This document shows positions 4,026 to 32,503 of a stretch of DNA of 34,231 nucleotides, piece by piece. How positions within the stretch are numbered: position 1 is the stretch's first letter; each line of letters starts with the position of its first letter. The position numbers and the translations under genes were made by a program. The DNA is from Thermodesulfobacteriales bacterium (GTDB lineage: Bacteria > Desulfobacterota > Thermodesulfobacteria > Thermodesulfobacteriales > Thermodesulfatatoraceae). The notes under the pieces were generated by a model. That model was not told where the DNA came from. It ran no database searches and saw nothing but the letters and a program-made list of their open reading frames with translations. The stretch is from positions 1 through 34,231 of the forward strand of contig JALSKZ010000074.1 of NCBI GenBank assembly GCA_026988575.1, read 5' to 3'.

Positions 4026-4943
4026 ATGGAAAAAGATAAACTCCAAAAGGAGATAAGACGCTTGGCTCAGGAGAAGGAGGCTATCATCCTGGCGCACAAT
4101 TACCAGCCCCCAGAGATCCAAGACGTGGCTGATCTCACGGGAGATTCTCTGGAATTGAGTCTCAAGGCCTCTCGGACCCCGGCCAAGGTAGTGGTCTTTT
4201 GCGGAGTACGTTTTATGGCCGAGACAGCAGCTATAGTGTGTCCTGAGAAACGTATTGTTTTCCCTCGTCTGGAAGCCGGTTGCGAGATGGCCGATATGAT
4301 TACCCCTGAAGACGTGCTTGGGCTAAAAGAACGATATCCTCAGGCACCGGTGGTGACTTATGTAAATTCTTACGTGGAGATAAAGGCTGTAAGTGATATA
4401 TGCTGTACCTCTGCCAATTCGGTCAACGTGGTAAAGGCCCTTGAGGCCCAAGAAGTCATTATGGTGCCTGACAAAAATTTGGCCCGTTATACCCAGCGCT
4501 TTTTCCCCGATAAGAAGATCTATTACCACGATGGTTTTTGTCCCTTTCACGAAGTGCTTACCGTAGAAGACTTGCAGCAGGCCCGCAAACAACACCCTGA
4601 GGCCGTGTTGATGGTCCATCCAGAATGTCGTCCAGAAGTGATAGACCAGGCGGAAGTAGTACGTTCTACCAGTGGTATGCTCAAATACGCCCGTGAATCC
4701 TCTGCCCGCGAATTTATCGTGGGTACCGAAATAGGGCTCCTTTATCCGCTCAAAAAACAAAATCCACACAAGGAATTTTATCCGGCTTCTAGTCAAATGT
4801 TGTGCAAGGCTATGAAGATGATATCCCTAGAAGACCTCTATAAGGCCTTAGAGACCCTGGAACCGGTGGTGGAAGTGCCCGAGGATATAAGGCAAAGGGC
4901 CTATCAGGCGGTGGCCCGTATGTTAGAGATCCCCAGGAATTGA
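4026..4943 (+). CDS. nadA: Quinolinate synthase A
   Basis: NadA condenses iminoaspartate with dihydroxyacetone phosphate to quinolinate in de novo NAD synthesis, using an oxygen-sensitive [4Fe-4S] cluster. The 305-residue length is that of the compact NadA type. Family motifs are ILAHNYQPPEIQDVAD, CGVRFMAETAAIV, CCTSANSVNVV and VGTEIGLLYPL. The three cluster ligands are predicted at Cys86 (LEAGCEMADM), Cys172 (DGFCPFHE) and Cys260 (SQMLCKAMK), with spacing that fits other NadA proteins. A strong AAGGGGG ribosome site precedes the ATG. The stop overlaps the proposed TTG start of rsmG. nadB and nadC are not in the window. Confidence 0.96.
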   Translation: MEKDKLQKEIRRLAQEKEAIILAHNYQPPEIQDVADLTGDSLELSLKASRTPAKVVVFCGVRFMAETAAIVCPEKRIVFPRLEAGCEMADMITPEDVLGLKERYPQAPVVTYVNSYVEIKAVSDICCTSANSVNVVKALEAQEVIMVPDKNLARYTQRFFPDKKIYYHDGFCPFHEVLTVEDLQQARKQHPEAVLMVHPECRPEVIDQAEVVRSTSGMLKYARESSAREFIVGTEIGLLYPLKKQNPHKEFYPASSQMLCKAMKMISLEDLYKALETLEPVVEVPEDIRQRAYQAVARMLEIPRN

Positions 4944-5620
4944 CCCGTCCAGAAATGCTTAAGTCCTCCCAAGGACAGAGTTCTAAGATGGCCCTCTATC
5001 TGAGACAAGGTCTAAGATCTCTAGGGCTCAATTTGGACCAGTATAGACAGGATCAATTATTAAAATATGGGCAAGAGCTTCTTACCATGGCTCCCTCTCT
5101 TGGACTTTCTAATCTCAGAGACCCTAAAGCGGTAGTGGCCAAGCATATCCTGGATAGCCTTTTGGTCTTATCTCTTTTGCCAACCCAAGGGCCTATCCTT
5201 GATTTAGGTACAGGGGCTGGTTTGCCAGGTATGGTGATTAAGATTGTGGCTCCCGAAAGGGAGGTCTGGCTGGTAGATGCGCGCAAAAAGGCGGTGTCTT
5301 TCCTACATTATGTAGCCGCTGAGTTAGGTCTAAGGGGGCTCAAAATCATACATACCCGTGTGGGAGAGGGTGATAGTTTACCTAAACAATACTTTTCCGT
5401 GGTGCTTTCCAGGGCTGTAACTAGTCTAGATACGCTTTGGGAATGGGCTCATCCCCTCTTAAAAATAGGGGGGAGACTACTGGCGCTAAAAGGGCCTAAG
5501 GCCTACAAAGAAATAGACAAACTCGGCCACCTCAAACCACAGTTATTCATAAATAGATATGACTTTTCTTTGCCTCTCTTAGGAGATAGACGCGTTATTG
5601 TTGATGTTCGTCAAGACTAG
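4940..5620 (+). CDS. rsmG: 16S rRNA (guanine-N7)-methyltransferase RsmG (GidB)
   Basis: RsmG methylates a guanine of the 530 loop of 16S rRNA (G527 in E. coli) using S-adenosylmethionine. The SAM-binding loop is ILDLGTGAGLPGMVI, followed by the acidic strand end LVDARKKAVSFL and the later SRAVTSLDTLWEWA and GGRLLALKGP motifs, all typical of RsmG. The 226-residue length is normal. The assigned TTG start overlaps the nadA stop (ATTGA) and has AGGA four bases upstream; ATG codons at 4955 and 4988 are alternatives, so the exact N-terminus is uncertain. It converges with the response-regulator gene, with only 13 bases between the two stops and no convincing hairpin. Confidence 0.92.
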   Translation: MTRPEMLKSSQGQSSKMALYLRQGLRSLGLNLDQYRQDQLLKYGQELLTMAPSLGLSNLRDPKAVVAKHILDSLLVLSLLPTQGPILDLGTGAGLPGMVIKIVAPEREVWLVDARKKAVSFLHYVAAELGLRGLKIIHTRVGEGDSLPKQYFSVVLSRAVTSLDTLWEWAHPLLKIGGRLLALKGPKAYKEIDKLGHLKPQLFINRYDFSLPLLGDRRVIVDVRQD

Positions 5621-5633
5621 TAGGGATTTTTCT

Positions 5634-6002
5634 CTAAATTTTTTTTATTAAGGTGTTGATTAATTGTACCAAGTTTTGTGGGTGGTAAGGTTTAGGAAGG
5701 ATCTGTATCTGGTGTGTATTCTTTTGGGTTAAACGGTCAAGCATAGTTTTGTCTGTATAACCGGTAGTTATAATTACGGGCATATCCATAAGACCTTCTT
5801 CAAACAATTCGCAAGCAAAACCATCTGTCAGGCCACAATCGCTAATACAGAGGGAAAAGTCGTGCTCGTTGAGCATGGAGCGTGCTTCGCTAAGGCTTCT
5901 GGCCACTTTTACCTCGTAATTCTGTTGTGTTATTTGAAAAAACTCCAGCAGCATTTCGATGATAAGATCTTCGTCTTCGATAAGAAGAATTTTGGGCCTC
6001 AT
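5634..6002 (-). CDS. Single-domain response regulator (receiver only)
   Basis: This 122-residue protein is a stand-alone CheY-like receiver. Conserved residues are the acidic pocket Glu9/Asp10 (LLIEDED), the phospho-acceptor Asp55 (CISDCGLTDG), Thr79/Thr80 (VIITTGYTD) and Lys104 (LPKPYH). There is no DNA-binding or enzymatic output domain, so it must signal by protein contact or act as a phosphate relay. No histidine kinase is in the window, but a lone Hpt protein lies upstream on the same strand (9272-9625). It lies downstream of leuA, beyond a hairpin, and may be transcribed separately. GGAGGG directly abuts the ATG, which is unusually close for a ribosome site. Confidence 0.9.
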   Translation of the reverse strand: MRPKILLIEDEDLIIEMLLEFFQITQQNYEVKVARSLSEARSMLNEHDFSLCISDCGLTDGFACELFEEGLMDMPVIITTGYTDKTMLDRLTQKNTHQIQILPKPYHPQNLVQLINTLIKKI

Positions 6003-6080
6003 CCCTCCATCCCGCTCAATAGTGAGTTTATCTCTCTAAGAAATTATCGAACTATTATTAAAATTTATTTAATTTATTTA

Positions 6081-6103
6081 GAGAGGGGGCACAACCCCCT
6101 CTC
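6081..6103 (-). terminator. Stem-loop after leuA, probable terminator
   Basis: GAGAGGGGG (6081-6089) and CCCCCTCTC (6095-6103) form a perfect 9-bp stem with a five-base loop. It lies five bases past the leuA stop. Read on the minus strand it is followed by an A/T-rich tract rather than pure Ts, so termination may be partial. Confidence 0.7.
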
Positions 6104-6107
6104 TTGT

Positions 6108-7778
6108 TTAACCCTTGATAATGCCCCTTTCTTCGTAGGAGGCAGCTAGTTTTTGGCGCAATTCTTCCCCTTTAGCCCTAAAGGCCTCCAGACGGTTTAG
6201 GGCATTGATCAAGGCCTTGATGCCCGCCGCCACTATATCGTCGTCTTTGCCCAGACCAGCAGTACGTCTACCCTGGTGGTCTTCAATCACCACCGCACAT
6301 ACTCCCAGGGCCTCGGTACCCTTTCCCACCGAATCGATATGAAAGTCTACTAAACGCAATTCTTTTTCTCCCGAGACAGGTCCTTCAGGGGTAACAAAGC
6401 GATAGTCCAGGGCCCTGGCTACGGCCTTAAAGGCGGCGTCCACAGAACCAATCCCCACGGTGACGGCCTTGTGTGTGCCAGAAAGCCTGTCGAGGATCTC
6501 TATCTGAGCCACAGGTTGCAGAGGGGCGCCGTAAATACTTGAGACATAAGCCGAAGTCACTTGATAGCGATAGTCTTGGGCCAAAAATTCGTCCAAAAGG
6601 ACACCTTCGAGATATTCGTCTTGGATGGCCCGCAGGACATCTTTTACCTCGGCGCGGAAACGTTCGAATATTTTGGATAGCTGTTCGGGGGTAAGACGCC
6701 AGCCGCGGCTTTCCAGCTTAAAGCGGACGGCGTGTCGACCTGAGTGTTTGCCCAGCACGATGGCACTACCTGTCCAGCCTACTTCCTGAGGATCCATAAT
6801 TTCATATGTGCCGCGGTGCATGATGACGCCGTGTTGATGAATGCCTGACTCGTGGGCAAAAGCGTTGGCTCCTACAATGGCCTTATTGGGTTGGACAAAC
6901 ATGCCCGTGAGGTTGGCCACCAGCTGACTTGTAGGCACAATACGGTTGGTCTTGACACGCGTTTCTAAACGATGGCCTATGGTCTTTTCAAAAAAATCTC
7001 CCCGGACCTTTAAGGTCATGACTATTTCTTCCAGGGCCGCGTTACCTGCCCTTTCGCCCAGGCCGTTTATAGTACATTCTACTTGGCGTGCTCCGGCCAA
7101 CAGGGCCGATAGAGAATTAGCCACCGCTAGCCCCAAATCATTGTGGCAATGTACACTAAAGACCACCTTTCCCTCTTCTACCAGGTGATATAAATCGTGT
7201 TCTTTCAAGGAATCCACCAGGAATTTAATTAGGTCATAATATTCCTGAGGTACGGTATAACCGACGGTGTCAGGGATGTTTACGGTAGTGGCACCGGCCT
7301 TTATTACTGCTGTAACTACTTGGGCCAAATAATTCCATTCACTGCGGGTGGCGTCTTCAGCAGAGAATTCCACAAAGGGCGTGTATTTTTTGGCGTACTT
7401 TACGGCTTCCACGGCCATCTCCAGTACTTCCTCACGCGTCTTGCGTAACTTGTGCTGTAGATGGATATCAGAAGTGGCAATAAAGGTATGGATGCGTGGC
7501 GAAGAGGCCTTTTTGATGGCCTCCCAGGCTACATCAATGTCTTTAAAGTTGGCCCGGGCCAGAGCAGCTACCTGGACATCTTTTACGGTTTCGGCCACGG
7601 TTTTGACCCCTTCAAAATCTCCAGGAGAAGATACCGGGAAGCCCGCTTCGATGATATCCACTTGTAAGGCCTCCAAGGCCTTGGCTATTTCTAGCTTTTC
7701 GGCCATGCTCAAAGATACGCCAGGAGATTGTTCCCCGTCTCTTAAAGTAGTATCAAAGATATAAACCCGCGGGATCAT
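6108..7778 (-). CDS. leuA: 2-isopropylmalate synthase
   Basis: LeuA condenses acetyl-CoA with 2-oxoisovalerate, the first committed step of leucine synthesis. The TIM-barrel start FDTTLRDGEQSPG carries the catalytic Arg13-Asp14 pair. The metal-binding HxH is His210/His212 in FSVHCHNDLG, followed by NGLGERAGNAALEE. The subdomain motif GIHQHGVIMH is present, and residues from about 400 to 540 form the C-terminal regulatory dimer domain that binds leucine in the family. At 556 residues it is somewhat longer than the usual 510-520. Citramalate synthase is an alternative within the family, but the GERAGNA motif and overall similarity favour LeuA. AGGAGG lies six bases before the ATG. No other leu or ilv genes are present. 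Confidence 0.93.
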   Translation of the reverse strand: MIPRVYIFDTTLRDGEQSPGVSLSMAEKLEIAKALEALQVDIIEAGFPVSSPGDFEGVKTVAETVKDVQVAALARANFKDIDVAWEAIKKASSPRIHTFIATSDIHLQHKLRKTREEVLEMAVEAVKYAKKYTPFVEFSAEDATRSEWNYLAQVVTAVIKAGATTVNIPDTVGYTVPQEYYDLIKFLVDSLKEHDLYHLVEEGKVVFSVHCHNDLGLAVANSLSALLAGARQVECTINGLGERAGNAALEEIVMTLKVRGDFFEKTIGHRLETRVKTNRIVPTSQLVANLTGMFVQPNKAIVGANAFAHESGIHQHGVIMHRGTYEIMDPQEVGWTGSAIVLGKHSGRHAVRFKLESRGWRLTPEQLSKIFERFRAEVKDVLRAIQDEYLEGVLLDEFLAQDYRYQVTSAYVSSIYGAPLQPVAQIEILDRLSGTHKAVTVGIGSVDAAFKAVARALDYRFVTPEGPVSGEKELRLVDFHIDSVGKGTEALGVCAVVIEDHQGRRTAGLGKDDDIVAAGIKALINALNRLEAFRAKGEELRQKLAASYEERGIIKG

Positions 7779-7792
7779 ACAGCCTCCTTTTC

Positions 7793-7806
7793 ATAACTGT
7801 AGTTAT
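7793..7806. promoter_or_regulatory. Inverted repeat upstream of leuA
   Basis: ATAACT-GT-AGTTAT is a 6-bp inverted repeat that lies just upstream of the leuA ribosome site, in a 61-base A/T-rich gap after pssA. It could be an operator or a small mRNA hairpin. No regulator is identified. Confidence 0.25.
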
Positions 7807-7839
7807 AAATAAAAATTCTAATAAAGAATTAACTAAAAA

Positions 7840-8595
7840 TTAAGATAGCTTTTCTGATACAGGTATACGTACCCTCCGCCACCCGCGGAGGGTAAGGAGG
7901 ACGGGGCCAGATAGGGCATAGAGGAAAAATACAATAAAAAAGGTCACCTGGGGTTCGGTGGCTATGACCGTCAAGATGAGGACAAACGAGACCAAAGTAT
8001 AAAACGGATGCCGTTCAGCCCAGGGCATGCGTTTAAAGCTAAAATAGGGGATATTGCTGACCATCAGGTAAGAGAGGATGTATACCATGGCAAGAATAGC
8101 TATATGTTTGACCGGCGGGTCAAGCCCCAACCAGCGCATAAACAATACGGAAGTCACTACCAGACCCGCAGCCGCCGGGCTCGGTAGCCCCGAAAAATAC
8201 GTCTTGGCCGAACCCGAGGCCTGTATATTGAAACGGGCCAGACGTAGGGCGGCGGTGGCTACATAAAGGAAACATGCCAGCCACCCGTAGCGACCATATA
8301 CCTTGAGGGCAAACATGTAGGCCAGTAGGGCTGGGGCAAGGCCAAAGGATACCAGATCGCACAGGGAGTCATACTCTACCCCGAAACGGCTGGCTGTACC
8401 TGTAATACGGGCCACACGACCATCTAAGATATCAAAGATCATGGCCATTAGTACCGCCGCCGCGGCCCGAAAATAGTGCCCCTCAATAGAGGCTATAATA
8501 GCGTAAAAGCCACAGAAGAGATTGCCCGTCGTGAACAAGCTAGGCAACAAATAAATAGACCTCTTTTTTTCTTGGTTGTTCTGGTAATTAGCCAT
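7840..8595 (-). CDS. pssA: CDP-diacylglycerol-serine O-phosphatidyltransferase (phosphatidylserine synthase)
   Basis: This integral membrane enzyme makes phosphatidylserine from CDP-diacylglycerol and serine. The CDP-alcohol phosphatidyltransferase signature DGxxARx8Gx3Dx3D is present as DGRVARITGTASRFGVEYDS and continues LCD. Several hydrophobic segments follow across the remaining length, as expected for the family; the 251-residue size is normal for the B. subtilis-type membrane enzyme. The ATG overlaps the psd stop by 8 bases, so the two genes are translationally coupled. The product is the substrate of the neighbouring Psd, and together they give phosphatidylethanolamine. Confidence 0.94.
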   Translation of the reverse strand: MANYQNNQEKKRSIYLLPSLFTTGNLFCGFYAIIASIEGHYFRAAAAVLMAMIFDILDGRVARITGTASRFGVEYDSLCDLVSFGLAPALLAYMFALKVYGRYGWLACFLYVATAALRLARFNIQASGSAKTYFSGLPSPAAAGLVVTSVLFMRWLGLDPPVKHIAILAMVYILSYLMVSNIPYFSFKRMPWAERHPFYTLVSFVLILTVIATEPQVTFFIVFFLYALSGPVLLTLRGWRRVRIPVSEKLS

Positions 8596-9247
8596 TTTGT
8601 ACGCGCCAAGGGTGCCACAAAAGAGGGGTTTCTCCCGCTCTTACCCGGTGGCCTATATTTACTAATATCTTGCTGCCCTCTGCAGGTACCAACACTTCTA
8701 GTCTTGATCCAAAACGGATCATGCCTATGCGTTCTCCAGCCAGCACTTCCTCCCCTGGTTGGACAAAGGGGACCGTACGCCGGGCAATAAGGCCAGCCAC
8801 TTGCACAGTAAGTAACCGGAGACCATCCAGCCGCTCCATAAGGTAGAGACACCTTTCGTTTTCCTTTGCCGCTTCGGACCTATTGGCCGGTAAGAAGCAA
8901 CCGGGTTTGTGGATTATTTCTATTATCTTCCCACTAACCGGGGCCCGATTCACGTGCACATCAAAGAGGCTCATAAATATACTTATCTGGTACACGTCGG
9001 TGTTTAACCATTCGTCTTCGGCCAAACGGCGAATACCTATTATTTTTCCGTCTGCCGGGGAGATAACGAGCTCTCGATCATAAGGAGGGTACCGATCCGG
9101 ATCGCGGAAAAAATAGGCACAGGCTCCTGCAAGCCCCAGCGCCCAAAGGGCAGACCTCTTTCGCCTGAAGTGTCCTAAGACCGCCGCCAAGGCAGCTGGC
9201 CCCCCTACAAAGGGTAACCCTTGTCTATTTATCCCTAAAAACGACAT
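8588..9247 (-). CDS. psd: Phosphatidylserine decarboxylase (short form)
   Basis: Psd converts phosphatidylserine to phosphatidylethanolamine using a pyruvoyl group made by self-cleavage. The 219-residue size is the compact Psd form. Motifs are SPADGKIIGI (63-72), FMSLFDVHVNRAPVSG (91-106) and the processing site RFGSRLEVLVP, where cleavage is expected between Gly180 and Ser181, leaving the pyruvoyl on the small C-terminal chain. Residues 13-46 are hydrophobic and likely anchor it to the inner membrane. AAGGAG lies upstream of the ATG. It immediately precedes pssA in the same operon and follows the Hpt gene by 24 bases. Confidence 0.94.
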   Translation of the reverse strand: MSFLGINRQGLPFVGGPAALAAVLGHFRRKRSALWALGLAGACAYFFRDPDRYPPYDRELVISPADGKIIGIRRLAEDEWLNTDVYQISIFMSLFDVHVNRAPVSGKIIEIIHKPGCFLPANRSEAAKENERCLYLMERLDGLRLLTVQVAGLIARRTVPFVQPGEEVLAGERIGMIRFGSRLEVLVPAEGSKILVNIGHRVRAGETPLLWHPWRVQNG

Positions 9248-9271: not shown

Positions 9272-9625
9272 TTACGATGACAAGCATTCTTGGACTTCAT
9301 CTGCAAAATAATTACAAAGAACTTTTATTTCTGAAATCAATTTTTGATATTGTTCGGGGGGTAAATCTTCTCTTTCTATACGTAGGGCTCTTTCACGTAC
9401 GTCTTCTAGATATATTGTCCCTGCTGCGCCTTTGAGGCTATGGGCCTTTTCTTTTAAGATAGAGAGGTGGCCTTTTTCTAAGGCCTTTTCCATCTCTTCG
9501 ATCAGACCTTTGGCCGAGACGAGAAAAAGCTCTACGAGCTCTTTACAGAGTTGTAAATCGTTGCCTGTTTCTTCCCAAAAACGGGGCCAGTCCCAATTTA
9601 TTTTTTTTGCTTTATCTAGATTCAC
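9272..9625 (-). CDS. Hpt (histidine phosphotransfer) domain protein
   Basis: The 117-residue protein is all helical with the Hpt signature AHSLKGAAGTI; His62 is the predicted phospho-acceptor and Lys65-Gly66 the conserved pair. Stand-alone Hpt proteins relay phosphate between hybrid kinases and response regulators. The only receiver gene nearby is the single-domain regulator at 5634-6002 on the same strand; a partnership is inference. The GTG at 9623-9625 is the first start after an in-frame stop. No kinase is in the window. Neighbours are mnmA upstream and psd downstream, which have no obvious link to signalling. Confidence 0.88.
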   Translation of the reverse strand: MNLDKAKKINWDWPRFWEETGNDLQLCKELVELFLVSAKGLIEEMEKALEKGHLSILKEKAHSLKGAAGTIYLEDVRERALRIEREDLPPEQYQKLISEIKVLCNYFADEVQECLSS

Positions 9626-9672: not shown

Positions 9673-10713
9673 TTAGAAATCTAGTAAGCCTTGAGGGAGG
9701 ATTTCTGCTGCCCCAAGCACCAGATCGTCTCGATAAAATACGGCAAATTGCCCCGGAGTGATCGCCGGTTGGGGGTGATCAAATACTATATGTAGAGTTT
9801 GGTCTTCAGGATAGACCGTAGCTGGGGCTTCTTGATGACGATAGCGTATGCGTACTAGGGCCTTAAAAGGTCGTTGTAAGGGTAAGGGATAGAGTAAATT
9901 CAGTTTATGGGCCCAAAACTCTTTGCGGTAAAGATATTTCTTGGGGCCTACAATGAGTCTATTGTGGGTTATATCAAGGCCTACTACATAATAGGGGCGG
10001 CCTAGACGCAAGCCAAGACCGCGCCGTTGCCCAATAGTATAGGCGTATAGCCCCTTATGTTGGCCCACTACTTGGCCTGAGACAGTGATTATATCCCCTG
10101 GGGGAAAATCTAGGTCGGTAAACAATTTACGGTAATCTCCTCTTATAAAACACACTTCCTGGCTTTCAGGGGCGGTAAGGGTAAAAAGTCCTAGACGGAT
10201 GGCCTCTTTGAGGACCTCTTGTTTCTGCCAGTGACCCAAGGGAAATAGGGCGTGGGAAAGCTGTTTAGGGGAGAGAAGGGCCAAAAAATAAGACTGATCC
10301 TTGCCTTTATCTAACCCCTTGTAAAGGAGATGTTGATCTAGGTGGGGGTTATACTCAACCCGTGCGTAATGACCTGTGGCCATTACCGAGGCCCCCAGTC
10401 GTTGGGCCTCTTCCCAAAGGAGCCCGAATTTTATCTCTCTATTACAGAGCATACAGGGGTTGGGGGTCAGCCCCTGACGATAGGCGTTTATAAAATAGCG
10501 GATTATCTTTTCTCTAAAGGGCTTAGTAAGGTCCACCACGTGGCAAGAAAGGTGCAAACGGCGGCAGATCTCTTCTACGCGTTCTATCTCTCTGGAGGGG
10601 TTAGGTTGAGAAAGCAGGGCAAATAGTCCTAAACAAGGTCGTTGCTGGGCCACAAGGTGGGCCGCCAAGGCGCTATCTGCCCCGCCACTTAACGCTACGG
10701 CCGTTAACTCCAT
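9673..10713 (-). CDS. mnmA: tRNA-specific 2-thiouridylase MnmA
   Basis: MnmA makes the 2-thiouridine of wobble U34 in Lys, Glu and Gln tRNAs, activating the base with ATP. The PP-loop is VALSGGADSALAAHL near residue 6. Later motifs are PNPCMLCNREIKFG (84-97), ATGHYARV (112-119), KDQSYFLALL and ESQEVCFI, then the YTIGQRRGLG barrel motif. The conserved cysteines are Cys90 and Cys188. Cys87 sits where the E. coli protein has Asp99, giving a CxxC plus Cys triad that could hold an iron-sulfur cluster. At 346 residues it is slightly shorter than the E. coli enzyme. Its start overlaps the NIL-ferredoxin stop by ten bases, so the two are coupled. Confidence 0.94.
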   Translation of the reverse strand: MELTAVALSGGADSALAAHLVAQQRPCLGLFALLSQPNPSREIERVEEICRRLHLSCHVVDLTKPFREKIIRYFINAYRQGLTPNPCMLCNREIKFGLLWEEAQRLGASVMATGHYARVEYNPHLDQHLLYKGLDKGKDQSYFLALLSPKQLSHALFPLGHWQKQEVLKEAIRLGLFTLTAPESQEVCFIRGDYRKLFTDLDFPPGDIITVSGQVVGQHKGLYAYTIGQRRGLGLRLGRPYYVVGLDITHNRLIVGPKKYLYRKEFWAHKLNLLYPLPLQRPFKALVRIRYRHQEAPATVYPEDQTLHIVFDHPQPAITPGQFAVFYRDDLVLGAAEILPQGLLDF

Positions 10714-11135
10714 TCTGCTGTACGCCGTTCAAAATGTACTTCCATGGCCCTTACCGGACATACAGGGACACATAGCTCACACCCACTACAGCGATCTGCA
10801 TCAAAGACGATTTCCATGGTTTCGGTATTTACATACAAGGCACCAGTGGGGCAAACGGCAGTACAAAATCCGCAGTGGATGCAGCGTTCAAGATTACGTT
10901 GTATCTCTTGGCCAATGGTCTTAACTTCTACCCCGAGTTCTCTCAAGAAGGCCAGTCCCTTATTAAAATTTTTGGGATGACCAGAAAGTTCCATGATCAT
11001 TAAGCCCTCTTTGCCTGGTAATATGGTGGCTTTCAGGATGTTGAACGAGAGATCAAATTCTTTTACCAAGCGGTATACAATAGGTTGGTCGACGATGTCG
11101 GCTGGGAAACGCAGGACCAAGATTCGTTTGTACAT
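10704..11135 (-). CDS. NIL-domain ferredoxin (2[4Fe-4S])
   Basis: This 143-residue protein has an N-terminal NIL-type domain (about residues 1-77, the fold also found on methionine ABC transporter ATPases) and a C-terminal bacterial ferredoxin. Cys85, 88, 91 and 95 and Cys116, 119, 122 and 126 form two complete CxxCxxCxxxCP motifs. Similar small NIL-ferredoxins in methanogens take part in sulfide incorporation into homocysteine, which is established for that family but not shown here. Cotranscription with mnmA (overlapping) and the YcaO gene (16-base gap) suggests it could feed electrons or sulfur to a thiolation reaction. AGGAGG lies six bases before the ATG. Confidence 0.9.
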   Translation of the reverse strand: MYKRILVLRFPADIVDQPIVYRLVKEFDLSFNILKATILPGKEGLMIMELSGHPKNFNKGLAFLRELGVEVKTIGQEIQRNLERCIHCGFCTAVCPTGALYVNTETMEIVFDADRCSGCELCVPVCPVRAMEVHFERRTAEWS

Positions 11136-11151
11136 ATAAACCTCCTACTAT

Positions 11152-12864
11152 TCAGACCCTTAGCAACCTGCGATAAGGATACAGGTCGAGGTTAGGGTCT
11201 AGCTCTTGGGCCACATTAAAAAATTCTTGGGCCTTGTCCTTTAACCCCAAACGGGCCAAACAGGCCCCGACATTGGCGTGATCTTGGGCACTTTGGGGGT
11301 TTAATTCCAGGGCCTTTAAATAGGCCTCTAGGGCAGAGGAGATGTCGTTTAATTTAAAGCAAGCCGTACCCAAGATATTATAAAGCTCGGGTAGTTCCCC
11401 GTGAGATAAGGCTTTTTCGGCGGTTTGCCGTGCCTTTTTGTAGGAACCCTCCGCTAAGTACAAGTGGGCTAGGTGACACCATATGCCTATCATGTCTTCT
11501 TTAGGGGGGTCTAAAACCAAGGCAGATTCAAAATATGCGCGCGCTTCATGAGGGCGATGGAGCTGGACTAATATTTGTCCTAAATAGCTTTCAAGGTAGT
11601 AGCGCTTGGGGGCCTTGTCCCTTAAGAACAGGAGGATATCCAAGGCCTCTTGCGGTTCCGCGTAGAGGGCTACCGTGCGTACTAGTTGATACAATAAAGA
11701 TATACAAATGCGGCTGCGAAAATGAGCCCCTGGAATAGACGTATAGACTACAGGGATGTTGAGGCAAGGATCGGTAAAGTCCGATACATATACCAGGAAA
11801 TCCTTACTGGCCAAGCGGCTAGCCAACTCGTGGAGCTCTTCTACGTGGTCTGGCCTGGACAAATCGGGTAGATCTCCCAGTTCGCAAGTACCTTTTTGAT
11901 CCAGCACGTGTCTTGCTTCTTCCAGGGTGGTGTACTTAGGCAGGCCGCTTTCCAGGTAATGTCCTTCGGTATCAAAGTCTCCAGCAAGCTGGGCCACTTC
12001 TGTTAGGGCCCGTACCAAGGCCCTTTGGGGACTGGTGGCTGTACCAGCAGTATAGACGATCTCTGATCTATGGGGAAAGGTAGAAGGATCGTAAGCCAGG
12101 GCAGCTACGGTGGGGACAGGCATACCCAAGGTCATGTCCCTCAGATATAACTTTACCCCCAACCTTTTAAAACAGTTTAATAGGGCGTTAACTTCGGCGT
12201 CTTCTCCCTTGACCTCTAGACCTGGTAGAACCAGCTTATTTCTACTCGCTATAGCACAAACATGCCTTTCAATTACCTCACAAAGGCCCTGAACGGCTGC
12301 TTCGGCCCAGGTATTACCCGCAGAAGAACCATTGTATTCGTAAAGCAACCAGAACCAAAAAATTGGTATAAATCTCTCGGCCTCGGTAAATGCCTCGTAA
12401 GCACATTCCCAATGAAGGGGAATTTTAGGCAAAATTTCTTGGATAAAGCCCCTGGTTTGGTCCTGAGCAGGTTCTTCTACACTTTGCAACAAGGTCTCTA
12501 AAGAGAGGGCCTTGGGGCCCAATTCCTCTAACGAGGCCCTGATAAAAGGTCTGGAGCGGATCTTTTTAAACAGACAATAACGCTCCACTAGCTCCATTAG
12601 GGCACTGGCTTGGGCCAGCTCTTCGGTGGTCCCTTTGCCCATCTGTTTAACGTTACCCGTAAGGGCTAGGCCGTCTGAGCCATAAAGGCTCATATATATC
12701 GGTATTCCTAAGCGTCCTTTGTCTACGCGGCGTAACTCTTGGAAAATACGTCCTTTTTGACTAAGAACACCCTCTACCCATTGTATGGTTTGGGCAGGGC
12801 TTAAGTGTTTATCGGCCACTAATTTGGGCGAAGGTCTTTTAAATAAAGAGGCCAAGCCTTCCAT
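11152..12864 (-). CDS. YcaO-domain protein with C-terminal TPR repeats
   Basis: YcaO proteins use ATP to activate amide or peptide backbones, making azolines, thioamides or helping other thiolation steps. The ATP/Mg motifs are present: GKGTTEELAQASALMELVER (76-95), GNTWAEAAVQGLCEVIERHV (183-202) and RALVRALTEVAQ (281-292). After about residue 420 there are four TPR-like repeats ending near residue 560. The PxPxP tail typical of azoline-forming YcaO enzymes is absent. No precursor peptide, TfuA partner or TOMM dehydrogenase is seen nearby. It leads an operon with the NIL-ferredoxin and mnmA. AGGAG lies eight bases before the ATG. The substrate is unknown; a role in sulfur transfer is inferred from the neighbours. 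Confidence 0.88.
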   Translation of the reverse strand: MEGLASLFKRPSPKLVADKHLSPAQTIQWVEGVLSQKGRIFQELRRVDKGRLGIPIYMSLYGSDGLALTGNVKQMGKGTTEELAQASALMELVERYCLFKKIRSRPFIRASLEELGPKALSLETLLQSVEEPAQDQTRGFIQEILPKIPLHWECAYEAFTEAERFIPIFWFWLLYEYNGSSAGNTWAEAAVQGLCEVIERHVCAIASRNKLVLPGLEVKGEDAEVNALLNCFKRLGVKLYLRDMTLGMPVPTVAALAYDPSTFPHRSEIVYTAGTATSPQRALVRALTEVAQLAGDFDTEGHYLESGLPKYTTLEEARHVLDQKGTCELGDLPDLSRPDHVEELHELASRLASKDFLVYVSDFTDPCLNIPVVYTSIPGAHFRSRICISLLYQLVRTVALYAEPQEALDILLFLRDKAPKRYYLESYLGQILVQLHRPHEARAYFESALVLDPPKEDMIGIWCHLAHLYLAEGSYKKARQTAEKALSHGELPELYNILGTACFKLNDISSALEAYLKALELNPQSAQDHANVGACLARLGLKDKAQEFFNVAQELDPNLDLYPYRRLLRV

Positions 12865-12946: not shown

Positions 12947-12968
12947 AGCCCCGCCGGCCAGCGGGGCT
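12947..12968 (-). terminator. Rho-independent terminator of the cold-shock gene
   Basis: AGCCCCGC (12947-12954) pairs with GCGGGGCT (12961-12968) around a six-base loop. On the minus strand the stem is followed by TTTTTATTTTTATCC. It lies 23 bases after the stop of the cold-shock gene and separates it from the ycaO operon. Confidence 0.9.
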
Positions 12969-26869: not shown

Positions 26870-26906
26870 AGGTCGCACAAGCTAAAACAAACGGCAGGTG
26901 ATATTG

Positions 26907-27434
26907 GTGTCTCTTAGAGAACTTTTGACGGAAAAACGTGATGATATCCTTCAGGAATGGTACAAGGCCATTCTAGATACATATCCCAAAGAGGCGGCGG
27001 CCTTTCTCCGGCGCAATAGAGATCGTTTTGAAAATCCGGTGGGCCAACGTATTTTAGAGGGTATCGAAGGACTTTTAGACGAAATTCTTGGTGACTTTGA
27101 TGAAAAGCGCATAAAGTACTTTACTGATCGTGTACTACGTGTACGGGCGGTCCAAGATTTTAATCCCTCCGTGGCGACTGGTTACATATTAGCCTTAAAG
27201 AAGGCCATTCGGGAGGTTATAGAAGACGATCTCTCCCCTGAACTCTGGTCTGAATTTTTGGATCTTCTAGACAAAATAGACGAGATAGCCCTTTACGGTT
27301 TTGATATTTATATGGCTTGTCGCGAGAGGCTCTATCACTTAAAGGTAGAGGAATGGAAAAAACGGGTCTTCCTTTTGCTTAAAAGGGCTAACTTTATCTT
27401 CGACGAAAGAGAAGGTTCTTTACCACAACAATAG
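26907..27434 (+). CDS. RsbRD N-terminal domain-like protein
   Basis: This protein of about 175 residues is helical (SLRELLTEKRDDILQEWYKA, then VLRVRAVQDFNPSVATGYIL and EIALYGFDIYMACRERLYHL). It resembles the sensor-like N-terminal domain of RsbR-type stressosome proteins but lacks the STAS output domain. Genes of this type precede dsrM in several sulfate reducers, which is known from genome context; the function is not established. I chose the GTG at 26907 because AGGTGAT (26896-26902) is well placed for it; GTG 26898 and TTG 26904 are alternatives. It is probably the first gene of the dsr operon, 22 bases before dsrM, and may sense a signal or help assemble the complex. Confidence 0.78.
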   Translation: MSLRELLTEKRDDILQEWYKAILDTYPKEAAAFLRRNRDRFENPVGQRILEGIEGLLDEILGDFDEKRIKYFTDRVLRVRAVQDFNPSVATGYILALKKAIREVIEDDLSPELWSEFLDLLDKIDEIALYGFDIYMACRERLYHLKVEEWKKRVFLLLKRANFIFDEREGSLPQQ

Positions 27435-27456: not shown

Positions 27457-28488
27457 ATGGGTGCCGTATTCGCATTAATTACGGTGGTGGCTTTTGTATT
27501 AGTGGTTTATTTAGGTGTGGGGGTAGCGGGCCTGCATTTTCTCTTTGGGGTAATCATCCCGTATGTAGCCTTTTTTACTTTTCTCATCGGGATGATTTAC
27601 CGGGTAATTGAATGGGCACGCTCTCCAGTACCTTTCCGGATTGTAACCACGTGTGGGCAACAAAAGTCTTTGAGTTGGGTAAAGCGTAACCCGTTGGAAT
27701 CTCCTTACAACAATTTTGAAGTGGCCCTGCGTATGTTCCTTGAGGTAGTCTTTTTCCGCTCTCTTTTCCGTAACCTCAAGGCCGAGATAAAGGGTCGCAA
27801 TCTCATTTATGGTTCCTACAAGTGGTTGTGGTTGTTTGCTATCCTTTTCCACTATTCCTTTTTTATAATCTTGCTGCGCCATTTTCGTTTCTTTGCCTAT
27901 CCGGTACCTAAAGTTATTGATGGTTTGAATCAACTGGATGCCTTTCTGCATATTGGTTTGCCTCATTTTTATATTACCGATGCCCTCATTTTAGCAGGGC
28001 TTACTTTTCTATTTGTACGTCGGTTAGCTGATCCCAAGCTTCGCTATATCTCTCTTGCCTCTGATTATCTTCCTCTATTTATGATTTACGGGCTAGTTAT
28101 TTCGGGTATCCTTATGAGGCATTTCTTTAAGGTTGACGTGGTGGGAGTAAAGGAGCTTACCATGAGTTTGGTCCACTTCAGTCCCAAGGTGCCTCAAGGG
28201 ATAGGTACAATCTTTTTTATACATCTATTCTTTATTAGCGCCTTGATGGCTTATTTCCCCTTTAGTAAGTTGGTACACATGTTGGGTGTCTTTTTGAGTC
28301 CCACTCGTAATTTGGCCAACAATAGCCGAGCCAAGAGGCATATTAATCCTTGGAATCAGCCTGCTAAGTTTAAGACTTATTGTGAGTGGCAGGAAATCTT
28401 TTACGAGCAGTTAGTTGAGTCTGGTCAACCTATAGATGAAGATTGTCCTCAGGTAAAAGAGCGTAAGAAGGCAGAAGGTGCCGAGTAA
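27457..28488 (+). CDS. dsrM: DsrM, cytochrome b subunit of the DsrMKJOP complex
   Basis: DsrM is a NarI/HdrE-like membrane cytochrome that exchanges electrons with menaquinone and passes them to DsrK. The 343 residues contain about six hydrophobic segments and several histidines inside or next to them (FHYSFFIILLRHFRFF, HIGLPHFYITDA, FIHLFFISALMAYF) suited to bind heme b. The soluble loop includes FRIVTTCGQQKSL. The C-terminal tail NPWNQPAKFKTYCEWQEIFY is cytoplasmic. It lies upstream of dsrK in the order M-K-J-O-P, which with the partner subunits makes the assignment firm. Confidence 0.95.
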   Translation: MGAVFALITVVAFVLVVYLGVGVAGLHFLFGVIIPYVAFFTFLIGMIYRVIEWARSPVPFRIVTTCGQQKSLSWVKRNPLESPYNNFEVALRMFLEVVFFRSLFRNLKAEIKGRNLIYGSYKWLWLFAILFHYSFFIILLRHFRFFAYPVPKVIDGLNQLDAFLHIGLPHFYITDALILAGLTFLFVRRLADPKLRYISLASDYLPLFMIYGLVISGILMRHFFKVDVVGVKELTMSLVHFSPKVPQGIGTIFFIHLFFISALMAYFPFSKLVHMLGVFLSPTRNLANNSRAKRHINPWNQPAKFKTYCEWQEIFYEQLVESGQPIDEDCPQVKERKKAEGAE

Positions 28489-28524
28489 TTAGGAATTAAA
28501 TTCTCCAAATAGAGAGGGTCGGAT

Positions 28525-30156
28525 ATGGCTAAGCTTCCAAAACCCGAAGAGCTGTTTGATTCAATAGATTGGACTCCGCCAGAAACGGATTGGATGGACA
28601 CCCCGGTGGAATTTCAGCCTGGCCGGTGGTGCTATCCTGCCAAGAAAAAGGTGGTGGAGGATCTAGGTTTTCCTAATCCGCGGGAATGGTCCCCGGCAGA
28701 TGAAGATTGGAAGATCCCTTCCAACTGGCGTGAAATTGTATTGGAGGGGATGAAGGAACGGTTAGAAAAATATCGCTCCTTTAAGCTCTTTATGGATATC
28801 TGTGTGCGTTGCGGGGCCTGTGCTGACAAGTGTCACTATTTTTTAGGGTCTGGAGATCCGAAGAATATGCCGGTACTCCGGGCGGAGCTGATGCGTTCCA
28901 TCTACAAAGGGGAGTTTACGCTGCCGGGTAAGATTTTTGGTCGTCTGGCCGGGGCTCGGAAGCTCACCGAAGAGGTCATCAAAGAGTGGTTCTATTACTA
29001 TTACCAGTGTAGTGAGTGTCGTCGTTGTTCTGTGTTTTGTCCCTACGGCATTGATACCTGTGAAGTGACCATGATGGGGCGAGAGTTGCTCCATCTCCTG
29101 GGCATTAATATCAACTGGATCCTTGAGCCGGTACGTAACTGTGTCTACATTGGAAACCACCTGGGTCTTCAGCCCCACACGGTCAAGGAAAACATCGAAT
29201 ATCTCTGCTGGGATATCGAAGAGGTCACTGGTTTAAAGATCCAACCCTCCTTTAACCGGAAGGGCGCGGAGATCCTATTTGTAGCCCCTTCGGGGGACTA
29301 TTTTGCGGACCCTGGTATTTATACTTTTATGGGGTATCTGGTCCTCTTTGAGTATCTTGGATTGGATTACACCTTAAGTACTTATGCTTCAGAGGGTGGT
29401 AACTTTGGTCTCTTTACCTCCCACGAGATGATGCAGAAGATCAACGCCAAGATTTATCATGAAGCCGAGCGTCTGGGCGTGAAGTTCATCATTGGTGGTG
29501 AGTGTGGTCACATGTGGCGTGTGAAACACCAGTACATGGATACGGTAAACGGCCCGGCGCCAAGCAATCTGGAAGTGCCGAAGAGCCCCATTACGGGGAC
29601 CGTTTTCGAGCACGCCAAGTCTACCAAGATGATCCATATTTGTGAGTTTACAGCGGACCTCATCGCCCACGGAAAGCTGGAGCTTGATCCCAGCCGCAAT
29701 GATAAATATGTGGTTACTTTCCACGATTCTTGTAACCCTTCGCGAGGAATGGGCTTTTTTGAGGAACCGCGTTTTATCCTAAAACATGTGTGTAATAACT
29801 TCTATGACATGCCCGAGAATACCATCAGGGAGAAGACCTTCTGTTGTGGTAGTGGTTCGGGTCTGAACACCGACGAATTTATGGATATGCGTATGCGTGG
29901 GGGTCTACCTCGGGCCAACGCCGTGGAGTATGTACACAAAAAACACGGGGTGAATATGTTGGCCTGTATTTGTGCTATTGACCGGGCGGCCCTTTCTACG
30001 CTTATGCAGTACTGGGTACCCGAAGTAGGTGTTTGTGGTGTACACGAATTAGTGGCCAATGCTTTGGTCTTTCCAGACGAAAAAACAGGGAAGAAAAAAC
30101 GGACTTTAGATTTACGTCAGCAACCTTTGAAGCCGGAGGATGAAGAAAATGTATGA
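28525..30156 (+). CDS. dsrK: DsrK, HdrD-like iron-sulfur catalytic subunit
   Basis: DsrK is the cytoplasmic subunit related to heterodisulfide reductase HdrD, thought to act on the DsrC trisulfide or disulfide. Two ferredoxin motifs are seen: Cys93/96/99/103 (CVRCGACADKC) and Cys162/165/168/172 (CSECRRCSVFC). Two later cysteine-rich sites follow: GGECGHMWRVKH, then TFHDSCNPSR with KTFCCGSGSG, which hold the noncubane-type catalytic cluster in HdrD-like proteins. 543 residues is normal. No signal peptide is present, consistent with a cytoplasmic location. GAGAGGGTCGG precedes the ATG. Its 3' end overlaps dsrJ. Confidence 0.96.
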   Translation: MAKLPKPEELFDSIDWTPPETDWMDTPVEFQPGRWCYPAKKKVVEDLGFPNPREWSPADEDWKIPSNWREIVLEGMKERLEKYRSFKLFMDICVRCGACADKCHYFLGSGDPKNMPVLRAELMRSIYKGEFTLPGKIFGRLAGARKLTEEVIKEWFYYYYQCSECRRCSVFCPYGIDTCEVTMMGRELLHLLGININWILEPVRNCVYIGNHLGLQPHTVKENIEYLCWDIEEVTGLKIQPSFNRKGAEILFVAPSGDYFADPGIYTFMGYLVLFEYLGLDYTLSTYASEGGNFGLFTSHEMMQKINAKIYHEAERLGVKFIIGGECGHMWRVKHQYMDTVNGPAPSNLEVPKSPITGTVFEHAKSTKMIHICEFTADLIAHGKLELDPSRNDKYVVTFHDSCNPSRGMGFFEEPRFILKHVCNNFYDMPENTIREKTFCCGSGSGLNTDEFMDMRMRGGLPRANAVEYVHKKHGVNMLACICAIDRAALSTLMQYWVPEVGVCGVHELVANALVFPDEKTGKKKRTLDLRQQPLKPEDEENV

Positions 30157-30601
30157 TACCGGCAAGATTCTAGCATTTATCGGGGCGTTTGTAGTCTTTG
30201 TGTCGACACCGTTTTGGTCGAATTTTGGAAAAGCGGCCTTTGAACCGCATCCCAAATTGCCCACGCAGTATAAGGAATGTGTTGAATCGAAAGAGTTTAT
30301 GCGTGCGGATCACATGAAGCTTTTACGCCTTTGGCGTTACGATGTGGTTCGTAAGGAGCAACGGATTTACGTTAATTCTAAAGGGGAGACTTATCCCATA
30401 AGTTTGCAAAACGAGTGTATGCGCTGTCATACAAGCAAAAAGGAATTTTGTGATCAATGTCATAATTATGTGGCGGCACACCCTTATTGTTGGAATTGTC
30501 ATATTTCGCCAGAGGAGAGGAAAGGATGGGCGTCAAAAGAATCTTTAAAAAAGGTATCAACCGAAGAAGCTTCCTCCGAATTGCCGGCTTCTCATCATTA
30601 G
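30149..30601 (+). CDS. dsrJ: DsrJ, periplasmic triheme cytochrome c
   Basis: This 150-residue protein has an N-terminal hydrophobic anchor (ILAFIGAFVVFVSTPFW) and three CxxCH heme motifs: CMRCH (90-94), CDQCH (101-105) and CWNCH (114-118). Cys44 (QYKECVES) matches the position of the cysteine that is an unusual axial heme ligand in Allochromatium DsrJ; this is inference from family knowledge. I chose the ATG at 30149 (MYDTGKILAF, typical for the family), nine bases after GGAGG, over the ATG at 30140 which abuts the ribosome site. It overlaps dsrK by 8 bases and dsrO by about 76 bases. It transfers electrons on the periplasmic side. Confidence 0.94.
   Translation: MYDTGKILAFIGAFVVFVSTPFWSNFGKAAFEPHPKLPTQYKECVESKEFMRADHMKLLRLWRYDVVRKEQRIYVNSKGETYPISLQNECMRCHTSKKEFCDQCHNYVAAHPYCWNCHISPEERKGWASKESLKKVSTEEASSELPASHH
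30513..30520 (+). promoter_or_regulatory. Ribosome binding site deciding the dsrO start
   Basis: AGGAGAGG lies five bases before the ATG at 30526, inside dsrJ. It favours this start and yields a clean twin-arginine signal. Confidence 0.75.
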
Positions 30602-31335
30602 CAGGGCTTTGGGCCTCGGCCAATATAGGGCTGCTTACTGGTGGCCAGAAGGTAGAGGCCTATGAAGTAAAACCGAGTCCCAATGCCTTGCGGGCTGGAC
30701 GTTGGGGAATGGTTATTGATACACGTATTTGTCGTCAGCACCCTGAGTGCAATAAGTGTATCGAGGCCTGTGATCATGAGCACAACGTGCCTCACATCCC
30801 CGATAAGAAGCACGAGATTAAGTGGATCTGGAAGGAAGAATTCGAAAATGCGTTTCCAGACACGGCACAGGAGTATTCCATCGAGCACCTAAAGGGGACG
30901 GAGTTTTTGGTTCTGTGTAATCATTGTGAGAATCCGCCCTGTGTACGTGTGTGCCCTACGCAGGCCACTTTTAAGCGGCCCGATGGTATCGTCATGATGG
31001 ATATGCACCGTTGTATTGGCTGTCGTTTTTGTATGGCCGCTTGTCCTTTTGGGGCACGTAATTTTAACTGGATAAATCCGCGTGCTTATATTAAGGACCC
31101 GAATCCCGAGTATCCTACGCGGATGCGGGGTGTGGTGGAGAAGTGCATCTTTTGTAATGAGCGTATAGATCAAGGCAAGCTTCCGGTATGCGCCGAGGCT
31201 TGTCCTTATGGGGCTATTGTAGTGGGTGATTTGGCGGATCCTAACTCCAAGATTAATCAAATTTTGCGGGAGAACTTTACTATTCGACGTAAGACGCATC
31301 TTGGTACTGGTCCATCAGTCTTTTACATAGTGTGA
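30526..31335 (+). CDS. dsrO: DsrO, periplasmic ferredoxin-like subunit with Tat signal
   Basis: The 269-residue protein starts with a twin-arginine signal: KKGINRRSFLRIAGF, then a hydrophobic stretch. Four cysteine groups (CRQHPECNKCIEAC, CNHCENPPCVRVCP, CIGCRFCMAACPFGARN and CIFCNERIDQGKLPVCAEAC) fit up to four [4Fe-4S] clusters. It resembles the iron-sulfur subunits of the molybdoenzyme/NrfC family, and pairs with the NrfD-like DsrP to exchange electrons with quinone. An in-frame upstream start at 30487 would add residues in front of the Tat signal and is rejected. The dsrP gene follows after seven bases. Confidence 0.95.
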   Translation: MGVKRIFKKGINRRSFLRIAGFSSLAGLWASANIGLLTGGQKVEAYEVKPSPNALRAGRWGMVIDTRICRQHPECNKCIEACDHEHNVPHIPDKKHEIKWIWKEEFENAFPDTAQEYSIEHLKGTEFLVLCNHCENPPCVRVCPTQATFKRPDGIVMMDMHRCIGCRFCMAACPFGARNFNWINPRAYIKDPNPEYPTRMRGVVEKCIFCNERIDQGKLPVCAEACPYGAIVVGDLADPNSKINQILRENFTIRRKTHLGTGPSVFYIV

Positions 31336-31342
31336 GGTGCCT

Positions 31343-32503
31343 ATGTTAGAGAAGGCTTTAGTTGGCAGTAAAAAGTATTATTTGTGGTTAGGGTTTTTGG
31401 GTGTGCTCATCCTGGTAGGTTTTTGCTGTTATATCAAACAGTTCTTCTTTGGTTTGGGTATAACAGGGATGAGCCGGAGTGTCTCATGGGGTTTTTACGT
31501 GGCCCAATTCACCTATCTGGTTGGTATCGCGGCCTCGGCGGTGATGGTGGTCTTGCCGTACTATCTCCACAATTACAAAGAGTTCGGCAAGATGACCATC
31601 CTGGGAGAATTTTTGGCCATTGCCGCGGTTACCATGTGCATCCTTTTTATTCTGGTGGATCTGGGTCAGGTACACCGGGTGATGAATGTTCTTTTGCATC
31701 CTACGCCCCATTCGGTCATGTTTTACGACATGATCGTTCTTAGTGGGTACCTCATGATCAATATTATTTGTGGTTGGTCGGCCTTACATGCAGAATACAA
31801 GGGTTCTAAGCCACCTGCTTGGGTAAAGCCCTTTGTCTATTTGTCTATTCCGTGGGCGTTCAGTATTCATACAGTCACGGCCTTTTTGTACTCTGGTATG
31901 CCAGGGCGTGACTTCTGGCTCACGGCCATTATGGCTCCTCGCTTTTTGGCTTCGGCCTTTTGCGCTGGTCCGTCTCTCTTGCTCCTATTAACCTTTATAT
32001 TAAAAGGTTTTACCCGGTTTGATCCCGGCGATAAGGCTATCAAGACGCTGGCCAAGATTATAACATATGCCTTTTTGGCCAATATATTCTTCTTCCTGTG
32101 TGAGGTATTTACCGCGCTTTATAGTCATATCCCGGCGCACCGCTACCCTCTAGAGTATCTCTTTGTGGGCCTTCACGGGCACGGCAAGTTAGTCCCGTGG
32201 ATATGGACTTCTTGGATTTGTGCCGCGGTGGCGGTGGTCTTACTTGTCCCGCCTAAGACCCGTAATAATTTTGGGACCTTGGCGGTGGCCTGTATCTTGG
32301 TTATCTTATCTACCTGGATCGACAAAGGCATGGGCTTGATTGTTGGTGGTTTTGTGCCAGATCCTCTTGACCACGTCATGGAATATATGCCTACCCTTCC
32401 TGAGATAGGAATAACCATTGGAGTGTATGCTATCGGTTTCTTGATTCTTTCGCTGCTCTACAAGATAGCTATTACGGTTAAGGAACAAAGGGGTCTCATT
32501 TAA
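31343..32503 (+). CDS. dsrP: DsrP, NrfD-like membrane subunit
   Basis: DsrP is a polytopic NrfD-family protein of 386 residues, with about ten hydrophobic segments (for example LGFLGVLILVGFCCYIK and PYYLHNYKEF loop flanks, then LVIGASALMVVL-like repeats and FLILSLLYKIAITV). It binds quinone and works with DsrO. The ATG at 31343 (MLEKALVGSKKYYLWLG) fits the family start and has GAGGTG a few bases before it; a GTG at 31337 would add two residues. It is the last gene of the core operon and is followed by a strong terminator. Confidence 0.93.
   Translation: MLEKALVGSKKYYLWLGFLGVLILVGFCCYIKQFFFGLGITGMSRSVSWGFYVAQFTYLVGIAASAVMVVLPYYLHNYKEFGKMTILGEFLAIAAVTMCILFILVDLGQVHRVMNVLLHPTPHSVMFYDMIVLSGYLMINIICGWSALHAEYKGSKPPAWVKPFVYLSIPWAFSIHTVTAFLYSGMPGRDFWLTAIMAPRFLASAFCAGPSLLLLLTFILKGFTRFDPGDKAIKTLAKIITYAFLANIFFFLCEVFTALYSHIPAHRYPLEYLFVGLHGHGKLVPWIWTSWICAAVAVVLLVPPKTRNNFGTLAVACILVILSTWIDKGMGLIVGGFVPDPLDHVMEYMPTLPEIGITIGVYAIGFLILSLLYKIAITVKEQRGLI

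Follow-up and report, generated by a model that had tools for sequence, protein, structure and literature searches.

Introduction

Thioamides made by YcaO proteins are easily overlooked, and they have turned up in methyl-coenzyme M reductase and in the ribosome of Escherichia coli. The E. coli YcaO carries a C-terminal TPR-like domain. It is the thioamidase of Met82 of uL16 (PDB 4Q84-4Q86), and it modifies folded uL16 in vitro with Na2S, MgCl2 and ATP (PMC13063428). In methanogens, a YcaO thioamidates a glycine of McrA (MJ1094, PDB 6PE3). Here we analyze a gene for a YcaO-TPR protein that stands in one operon with genes for a NIL-domain ferredoxin (NIL-ferredoxin) and the tRNA U34 2-thiouridylase MnmA. 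The operon lies in a 34,231-nucleotide stretch of DNA from a sulfate-reducing Thermodesulfobacteriales bacterium of the phylum Desulfobacterota (assembly GCA_026988575.1, contig JALSKZ010000074.1, positions 1 to 34,231); this whole stretch is called the window below.

The two partners have described counterparts. Genetics in Desulfovibrio vulgaris and methanogens assigned DUF39 (HcyBio) together with a NIL/ferredoxin protein to homocysteine synthesis, and both are required for methionine in D. vulgaris, as shown for DvMF_0262 (PMC5764234). MnmA proteins comprise D- and C-type classes; a critical review treats both and discusses whether E. coli MnmA carries a [4Fe-4S] cluster, a point under dispute (PMC11784392).

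An earlier, sequence-only reading of the window had taken the trio for a single module that would supply sulfur for tRNA or protein modification without the usual IscS/Tus relay. We favor instead, at a probability of about one half, three distinct sulfide-using enzymes that are coexpressed rather than joined in one relay: a YcaO-TPR protein tied to dissimilatory sulfite reductase (Dsr) as a candidate protein thioamidase, a NIL-ferredoxin that would serve DUF39, and an MnmA that would serve tRNA. The Dsr link of YcaO-TPR is the new element; among the papers searched, none connects YcaO with Dsr, none mentions both YcaO and DsrC, and none combines YcaO, Desulfovibrio and sulfite reductase.

Results

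In a sample of 297 genomes drawn evenly from the phylum, YcaO-TPR was found in 106, with best matches at about 1e-65 or better. dsrA was present in 104 of these, compared with 40 of the 191 genomes that have no YcaO-TPR, and the two exceptions are incomplete bins (62% and 76% complete). The family level gave the same picture, with dsrA in all 37 families that have YcaO-TPR and in 13 of the 58 others. Over the 297 genomes, the phi coefficient with YcaO-TPR was 0.74 for dsrA, 0.69 for DsrD and 0.35 for HcyBio; the weaker co-occurrence of HcyBio argues against it as the main partner.

We then compared the neighborhoods of about 100 YcaO loci. DsrC is encoded at most 2.7 kb from YcaO-TPR in 17 loci and directly beside it in 14, with gaps of 21 to 394 bases. 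The adjacent dsrC gene lies downstream in seven families (f31, f50, f57, f67, f80, f85 and one genome of f42) and upstream in four genomes of family f18, and both C-terminal cysteines are present in the adjacent DsrC proteins whose sequences were read. In family f2, in the window's order, locus L055 holds YcaO, a radical-SAM gene, dsrC and a porin gene, and contig C85 of the window's genome holds the radical-SAM gene, dsrC and porin gene without YcaO, which suggests that the YcaO gene has moved. Other sulfur enzymes also recur next to YcaO-TPR. In family f40, HcyBio, NIL-ferredoxin, YcaO-TPR and Thi4 form an operon with overlapping or nearly overlapping gene ends (L078, L109, L123), and LarE is encoded directly upstream of YcaO-TPR in five loci (f35, f38, f51). 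NIL-ferredoxin and MnmA were rejected as general neighbors of YcaO-TPR outside the order and f40.

Several further genes were seen around these loci. The radical-SAM protein encoded directly 5′ of dsrC in the window's genome (L165, positions 396 to 1340, + strand), a relative of which lies between YcaO and DsrC in L055, resembles AmmeMemoRadiSam/activase proteins. In nine loci (L058, L059, L061-L064, L071, L074, L146), the gene 3′ of YcaO-DsrC encodes a conserved protein of about 325 to 600 residues that is probably secreted, and in three of them a MiaB-like gene follows. In f42 (L122, L135, L136, L140, L142, L145), YcaO-TPR shares 4 bases with the methyltransferase gene upstream of it, whose product resembles the PF10294 lysine methyltransferases; in f12 (L067, L069, L075, L077), YcaO-TPR is followed by genes for a protein with a CxxCxxCC metal-chelating domain and for a conserved protein of 113 to 116 residues without a Pfam match. 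Neighbors such as MiaB, MiaA, TsaE and RNase D, each confined to a single family or a handful of them, were not counted as evidence.

Within the window, the order on the minus strand is YcaO-TPR, NIL-ferredoxin, mnmA, as read from the open reading frames and their translations (Table 1). The first two genes are separated by 16 bases and the last two overlap by 10, as the sequence-only reading had described. A terminator closes the upstream cold-shock gene, so that YcaO-TPR probably opens the transcription unit, with the terminator as its 5′ border. The core of the arrangement in the order is YcaO plus NIL-ferredoxin: a NIL-domain gene adjoins YcaO-TPR in 36 of the 39 order relatives with a YcaO-TPR match, the exceptions being G021, G010 and a truncated contig in G009. 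A frequent companion is mnmA: of the 25 order loci examined, 15 have it as the third gene of the operon, 5 have it next to the operon in divergent orientation, and 5 lack it. A scan of named genomes with YcaO yielded three loci only. As the order is kept in many relatives, the arrangement is more than chance; this conservation and the tight spacing support the proposal that the trio is probably coexpressed. The adjacency might have been confined to one genome, a case that the sequence-only reading had raised against itself, and this is not so. Its other such case, that YcaO might cluster elsewhere with different genes, did apply, several of those genes being sulfur genes.

The ATP motif of the window's YcaO, SAGNTWAEAAVQGLCEVIER, matches the pattern Sx6Ex3Qx3ExxER, and in an alignment of 99 YcaO-TPR members, E91, E94, R95, E188, Q192, E196, E199 and R200 were conserved at 1.00. 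The YcaO ATP-binding motifs are thus complete, as had been stated from the sequence. No invariant cysteine was found among the 99 members. Invariant ATP residues without an invariant cysteine fit amide activation rather than a persulfide relay, and a role as persulfide carrier is therefore disfavored. The absence of a PxPxP tail and of a nearby TfuA was likewise borne out: the protein ends in TPR and YPYRRLLRV, and none of the scanned window proteins is a TfuA. It missed the cut-offs for SagD-type TOMM azoline cyclodehydratases (111.1 versus 219.25 bits, TIGR03604), McrA-thioamidation YcaO proteins (108.6 versus 365 bits, TIGR03266) and the E. coli YcaO equivalog (51.3 versus 700 bits, NF040716). 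The first of these scores, together with the lack of a PxPxP tail, supports the earlier view that this YcaO is unlike a standard azoline maker. In an AlphaFold model computed from a three-sequence alignment, the TPR domain was confident and the YcaO domain poor, with a mean pLDDT of 51.7.

The window protein resembles E. coli YcaO in its ATP motifs and in having neither TfuA nor a precursor peptide, and we count as a further likeness that the substrate which the E. coli enzyme modifies with sulfide is an intact, folded protein. It differs in falling far under the equivalog cut-off, in not being strongly acidic (pI 5.8, with a family median of 5.3, versus 4.4 for E. coli YcaO), and in its neighbors and taxonomic range. 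Its score against the methanogen model is close to its SagD score, and both proteins belong to anaerobic, sulfide-rich settings; however, it stays under that model's cut-off, and the solved MJ1094 chain of 385 residues has no room for a TPR domain. Protein thioamidation, known from E. coli YcaO, is the most likely activity of YcaO-TPR as well, with a different protein as the presumed client.

A second type of YcaO, of about 480 residues, about 33% identical and with a short TPR-like tail, is encoded in L152 (positions 4786 to 6228, − strand), near a two-cysteine DsrC (6738 to 7058, − strand) with a ComEA-like gene in between. It also occurs in f40 genomes that have dsrA and no YcaO-TPR (L153, L154). 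By eye, a TusA-like protein and two YedE/YeeE-like membrane proteins are encoded a few kilobases from it in L154 (1160 to 2395, − strand).

The NIL-ferredoxin gene is the sole NIL-domain gene found in the genome, which holds one copy of HcyBio/DUF39 (G000:C23, 516.9 bits). The two marks of the DUF39 pathway, a NIL plus 4Fe-4S architecture and a DUF39 in the same genome, are thus both present. The same architecture is found in the described pathway (MA1821-MA1822; DvMF_1464, DvMF_0262), and the f40 operon includes DUF39, whereas in the window's order the partner of NIL-ferredoxin is YcaO, often joined by mnmA, and not DUF39. As the only NIL-ferredoxin of a DUF39 genome, the window protein most likely serves DUF39-dependent homocysteine synthesis.

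MnmA scored above the NCBIfam equivalog cut-off of NF001138 (339.7 versus 284 bits) and also passed TIGR00420 (303.7 bits). It is single-copy in the genome, where a second, weak PF03054 match is not an MnmA by score. Its cysteines are of the C type, with a CxxC in NPCMLCN, common to the order relatives that were read, and a distal Cys in ESQEVCF. It shares both with the C-type [4Fe-4S] MnmA of Shigi 2020, as that enzyme is described in the review (PMC11784392). It differs in that the region of the N-terminal CC motif is absent, as in the known Campylobacter/Helicobacter variant named there.

The genome encodes two clear cysteine desulfurases, a NifS/IscS-like one on C53 and an EF2568-type one on C26. 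TusA-family proteins number three, including a YedF encoded beside the C26 desulfurase. DsrC is single-copy. With desulfurases and TusA-family proteins present, a bypass of the IscS/Tus relay has no genomic support, and this part of the sequence-only reading fails.

DVU2210 of D. vulgaris Hildenborough also combines YcaO and TPR. The ATP motif printed for it, SAGNTEEESILQGSCELVER, closely resembles SAGNTPEESLLQGLCELVER of the family member L135 and is similar to the window's; its apparent membership in the family rests on the motif, with near matches in L135 and L144, on architecture and on probable taxonomy. Loss of DVU2210 or mutation of its ATP motif makes a sat deletion strain no longer molybdate-sensitive (PMC7774982), and in a sulfate-free coculture DVU2210 and DsrC were both high-score mutation targets (PMC8319347). 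The papers found on DVU2210 do not link it to DsrC. A connection with sulfate respiration is consistent with these genetics but is not proven by them.

Discussion

In the mechanism that we propose, the TPR domain would bind a folded client protein, and YcaO-TPR would activate one of the client's backbone amides at the expense of ATP; attack by free sulfide on the activated amide would yield a thioamide. In the synthesis of homocysteine by DUF39, NIL-ferredoxin would provide the reduction, and the C-type MnmA would thiolate tRNA U34, probably via a [4Fe-4S] cluster that takes sulfide or persulfide. DsrC is the leading, unproven candidate for the client, because dsrC adjoins YcaO-TPR in many families. 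A bolder version, which we put forward as a speculation with the odds against it, holds that a component of dissimilatory sulfate reduction, in the first place DsrC, receives a backbone thioamide from YcaO-TPR. This would be a hidden modification parallel to the thioglycine of methyl-coenzyme M reductase, and the gene would have moved beside other sulfide-using enzymes in the window's order. That a YcaO family tracks Dsr over 37 families, often beside DsrC, suggests that sulfate respiration, itself a major step in the cycling of sulfur, could conceal a thioamide just as methyl-coenzyme M reductase and the ribosome did. The idea is directly testable, since D. vulgaris deletion and point mutants with a molybdate phenotype exist for a gene that apparently belongs to the YcaO-TPR family.

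Several points weigh against this assignment of three separate roles with a Dsr-tied YcaO-TPR. The co-occurrence figures are uncorrected on the tree, and inheritance within clades inflates them; 40 genomes have dsrA and no YcaO-TPR. Across most of the phylum, NIL-ferredoxin and MnmA are not neighbors of YcaO-TPR. No thioamide is known to have been reported in DsrC or DsrAB structures. The chemistry and the identity of the client are inferred throughout, from gene content, conservation, co-occurrence and motifs. Finally, deletion of DVU2210 leaves the rate of sulfate respiration normal (PMC7774982), so that a Dsr modification, if there is one, can be dispensed with in the media used.

The single module of the sequence-only reading, in which NIL-ferredoxin would reduce the sulfur that YcaO or MnmA inserts into tRNA or protein in place of IscS/Tus, draws on the tight operon in 15 of the 25 order loci and the divergent adjacency of mnmA in 5 more, on the Fe-S type of MnmA and on the homology of DsrC to TusE, the sulfur donor of MnmA in E. 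coli. We consider it improbable given the desulfurases and TusA-family proteins, a YcaO without an invariant cysteine to carry a persulfide, and the absence of mnmA both from five order clusters and from the first-examined YcaO loci outside the order. Elsewhere YcaO-TPR keeps company with DsrC, with HcyBio, NIL-ferredoxin and Thi4, or with LarE, not with mnmA; what survives, with support, is the shared theme of sulfide chemistry and sulfur insertion. The f40 operon and the YcaO-NIL-ferredoxin adjacency in the order could also mean that YcaO-TPR modifies DUF39 or NIL-ferredoxin as an extra factor of the sulfide-to-methionine route. This, too, has little probability, as YcaO occurs without HcyBio in 13 genomes, seven of them from a single genus (f42 g74, 100% complete), HcyBio occurs without YcaO in 102, and the D. 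vulgaris methionine screen named DUF39, NIL/ferredoxin and COG2122 but no YcaO (PMC5764234).

Alternatively, the three genes might merely share a promoter, as the downstream genes do, in a housekeeping directon without a functional link. The directon does continue beyond mnmA into unrelated genes with gaps of at most 61 bases (Hpt, phosphatidylserine decarboxylase [Psd], phosphatidylserine synthase [Pss] and a LeuA-type gene), in an identical order in the related genome L002, and mnmA is not always included. It is nonetheless an unlikely explanation, because separate families show YcaO beside NIL-ferredoxin in two different arrangements, and the neighbors of YcaO elsewhere are repeatedly sulfur enzymes (DsrC, LarE, Thi4, HcyBio). 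Least plausible, and to our minds very improbable, is that YcaO-TPR thioamidates uL16 and correlates with Dsr through sulfide supply only. The architectures are similar and the sulfide-dependent chemistry is known for E. coli YcaO (PMC13063428), but a score of 51 bits against a cut-off of 700, a pI well above that of the E. coli enzyme, whose acidic character has been connected with its binding of the basic uL16, and dsrA in 104 of 106 YcaO-TPR genomes, which would be left unexplained, argue against it.

Other features of the window

The coordinates of the operon and its surroundings are collected in Table 1. The dsrMKJOP operon, 14.6 kb from the YcaO operon and outside it, provides context.

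Table 1. Features of the window on and around the YcaO-TPR operon
Feature	Positions	Strand	Basis and remarks
YcaO-TPR, 570 aa	11152..12864	-	Pfam YcaO 7.9e-66 plus TPR repeats; YcaO ATP-activating domain ~75-380, TPR domain ~404-568
NIL-ferredoxin, 143 aa	10704..11135	-	Pfam NIL 1.2e-17 plus two 4Fe-4S motifs
MnmA tRNA U34 2-thiouridylase, 346 aa	9673..10713	-	Pfam tRNA_Me_trans 7.4e-54 plus both C-terminal MnmA domains
Ribosome-binding-site-like TAGGAGG	11141..11147	-	In the 16-base gap, 5′ of the NIL-ferredoxin ATG; read from sequence
Strong intrinsic terminator	12947..12968	-	9-bp stem, 7 GC pairs, T-rich tail; 3′ of the upstream cold-shock gene
Hpt domain protein, gene directly 3′ of mnmA	9272..9625	-	Pfam; position same in L002
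Phosphatidylserine decarboxylase, phosphatidylserine-synthase-type CDP-alcohol transferase, LeuA/homocitrate-synthase-type gene	6108..9247	-	Housekeeping tail of the directon
dsrMKJOP operon, complete (sulfate-reduction membrane complex)	27457..32503	+	All five above NCBIfam equivalog cut-offs

Two genes flank dsrMKJOP on the same strand. Directly 5′ of dsrM lies a gene for a protein with an RsbRD N-terminal domain (26898-27434, +), and 3′ of the operon is a gene for a CobB/CfbB-type a,c-diamide synthase (32576-34030, +), which could be DsrN-like.

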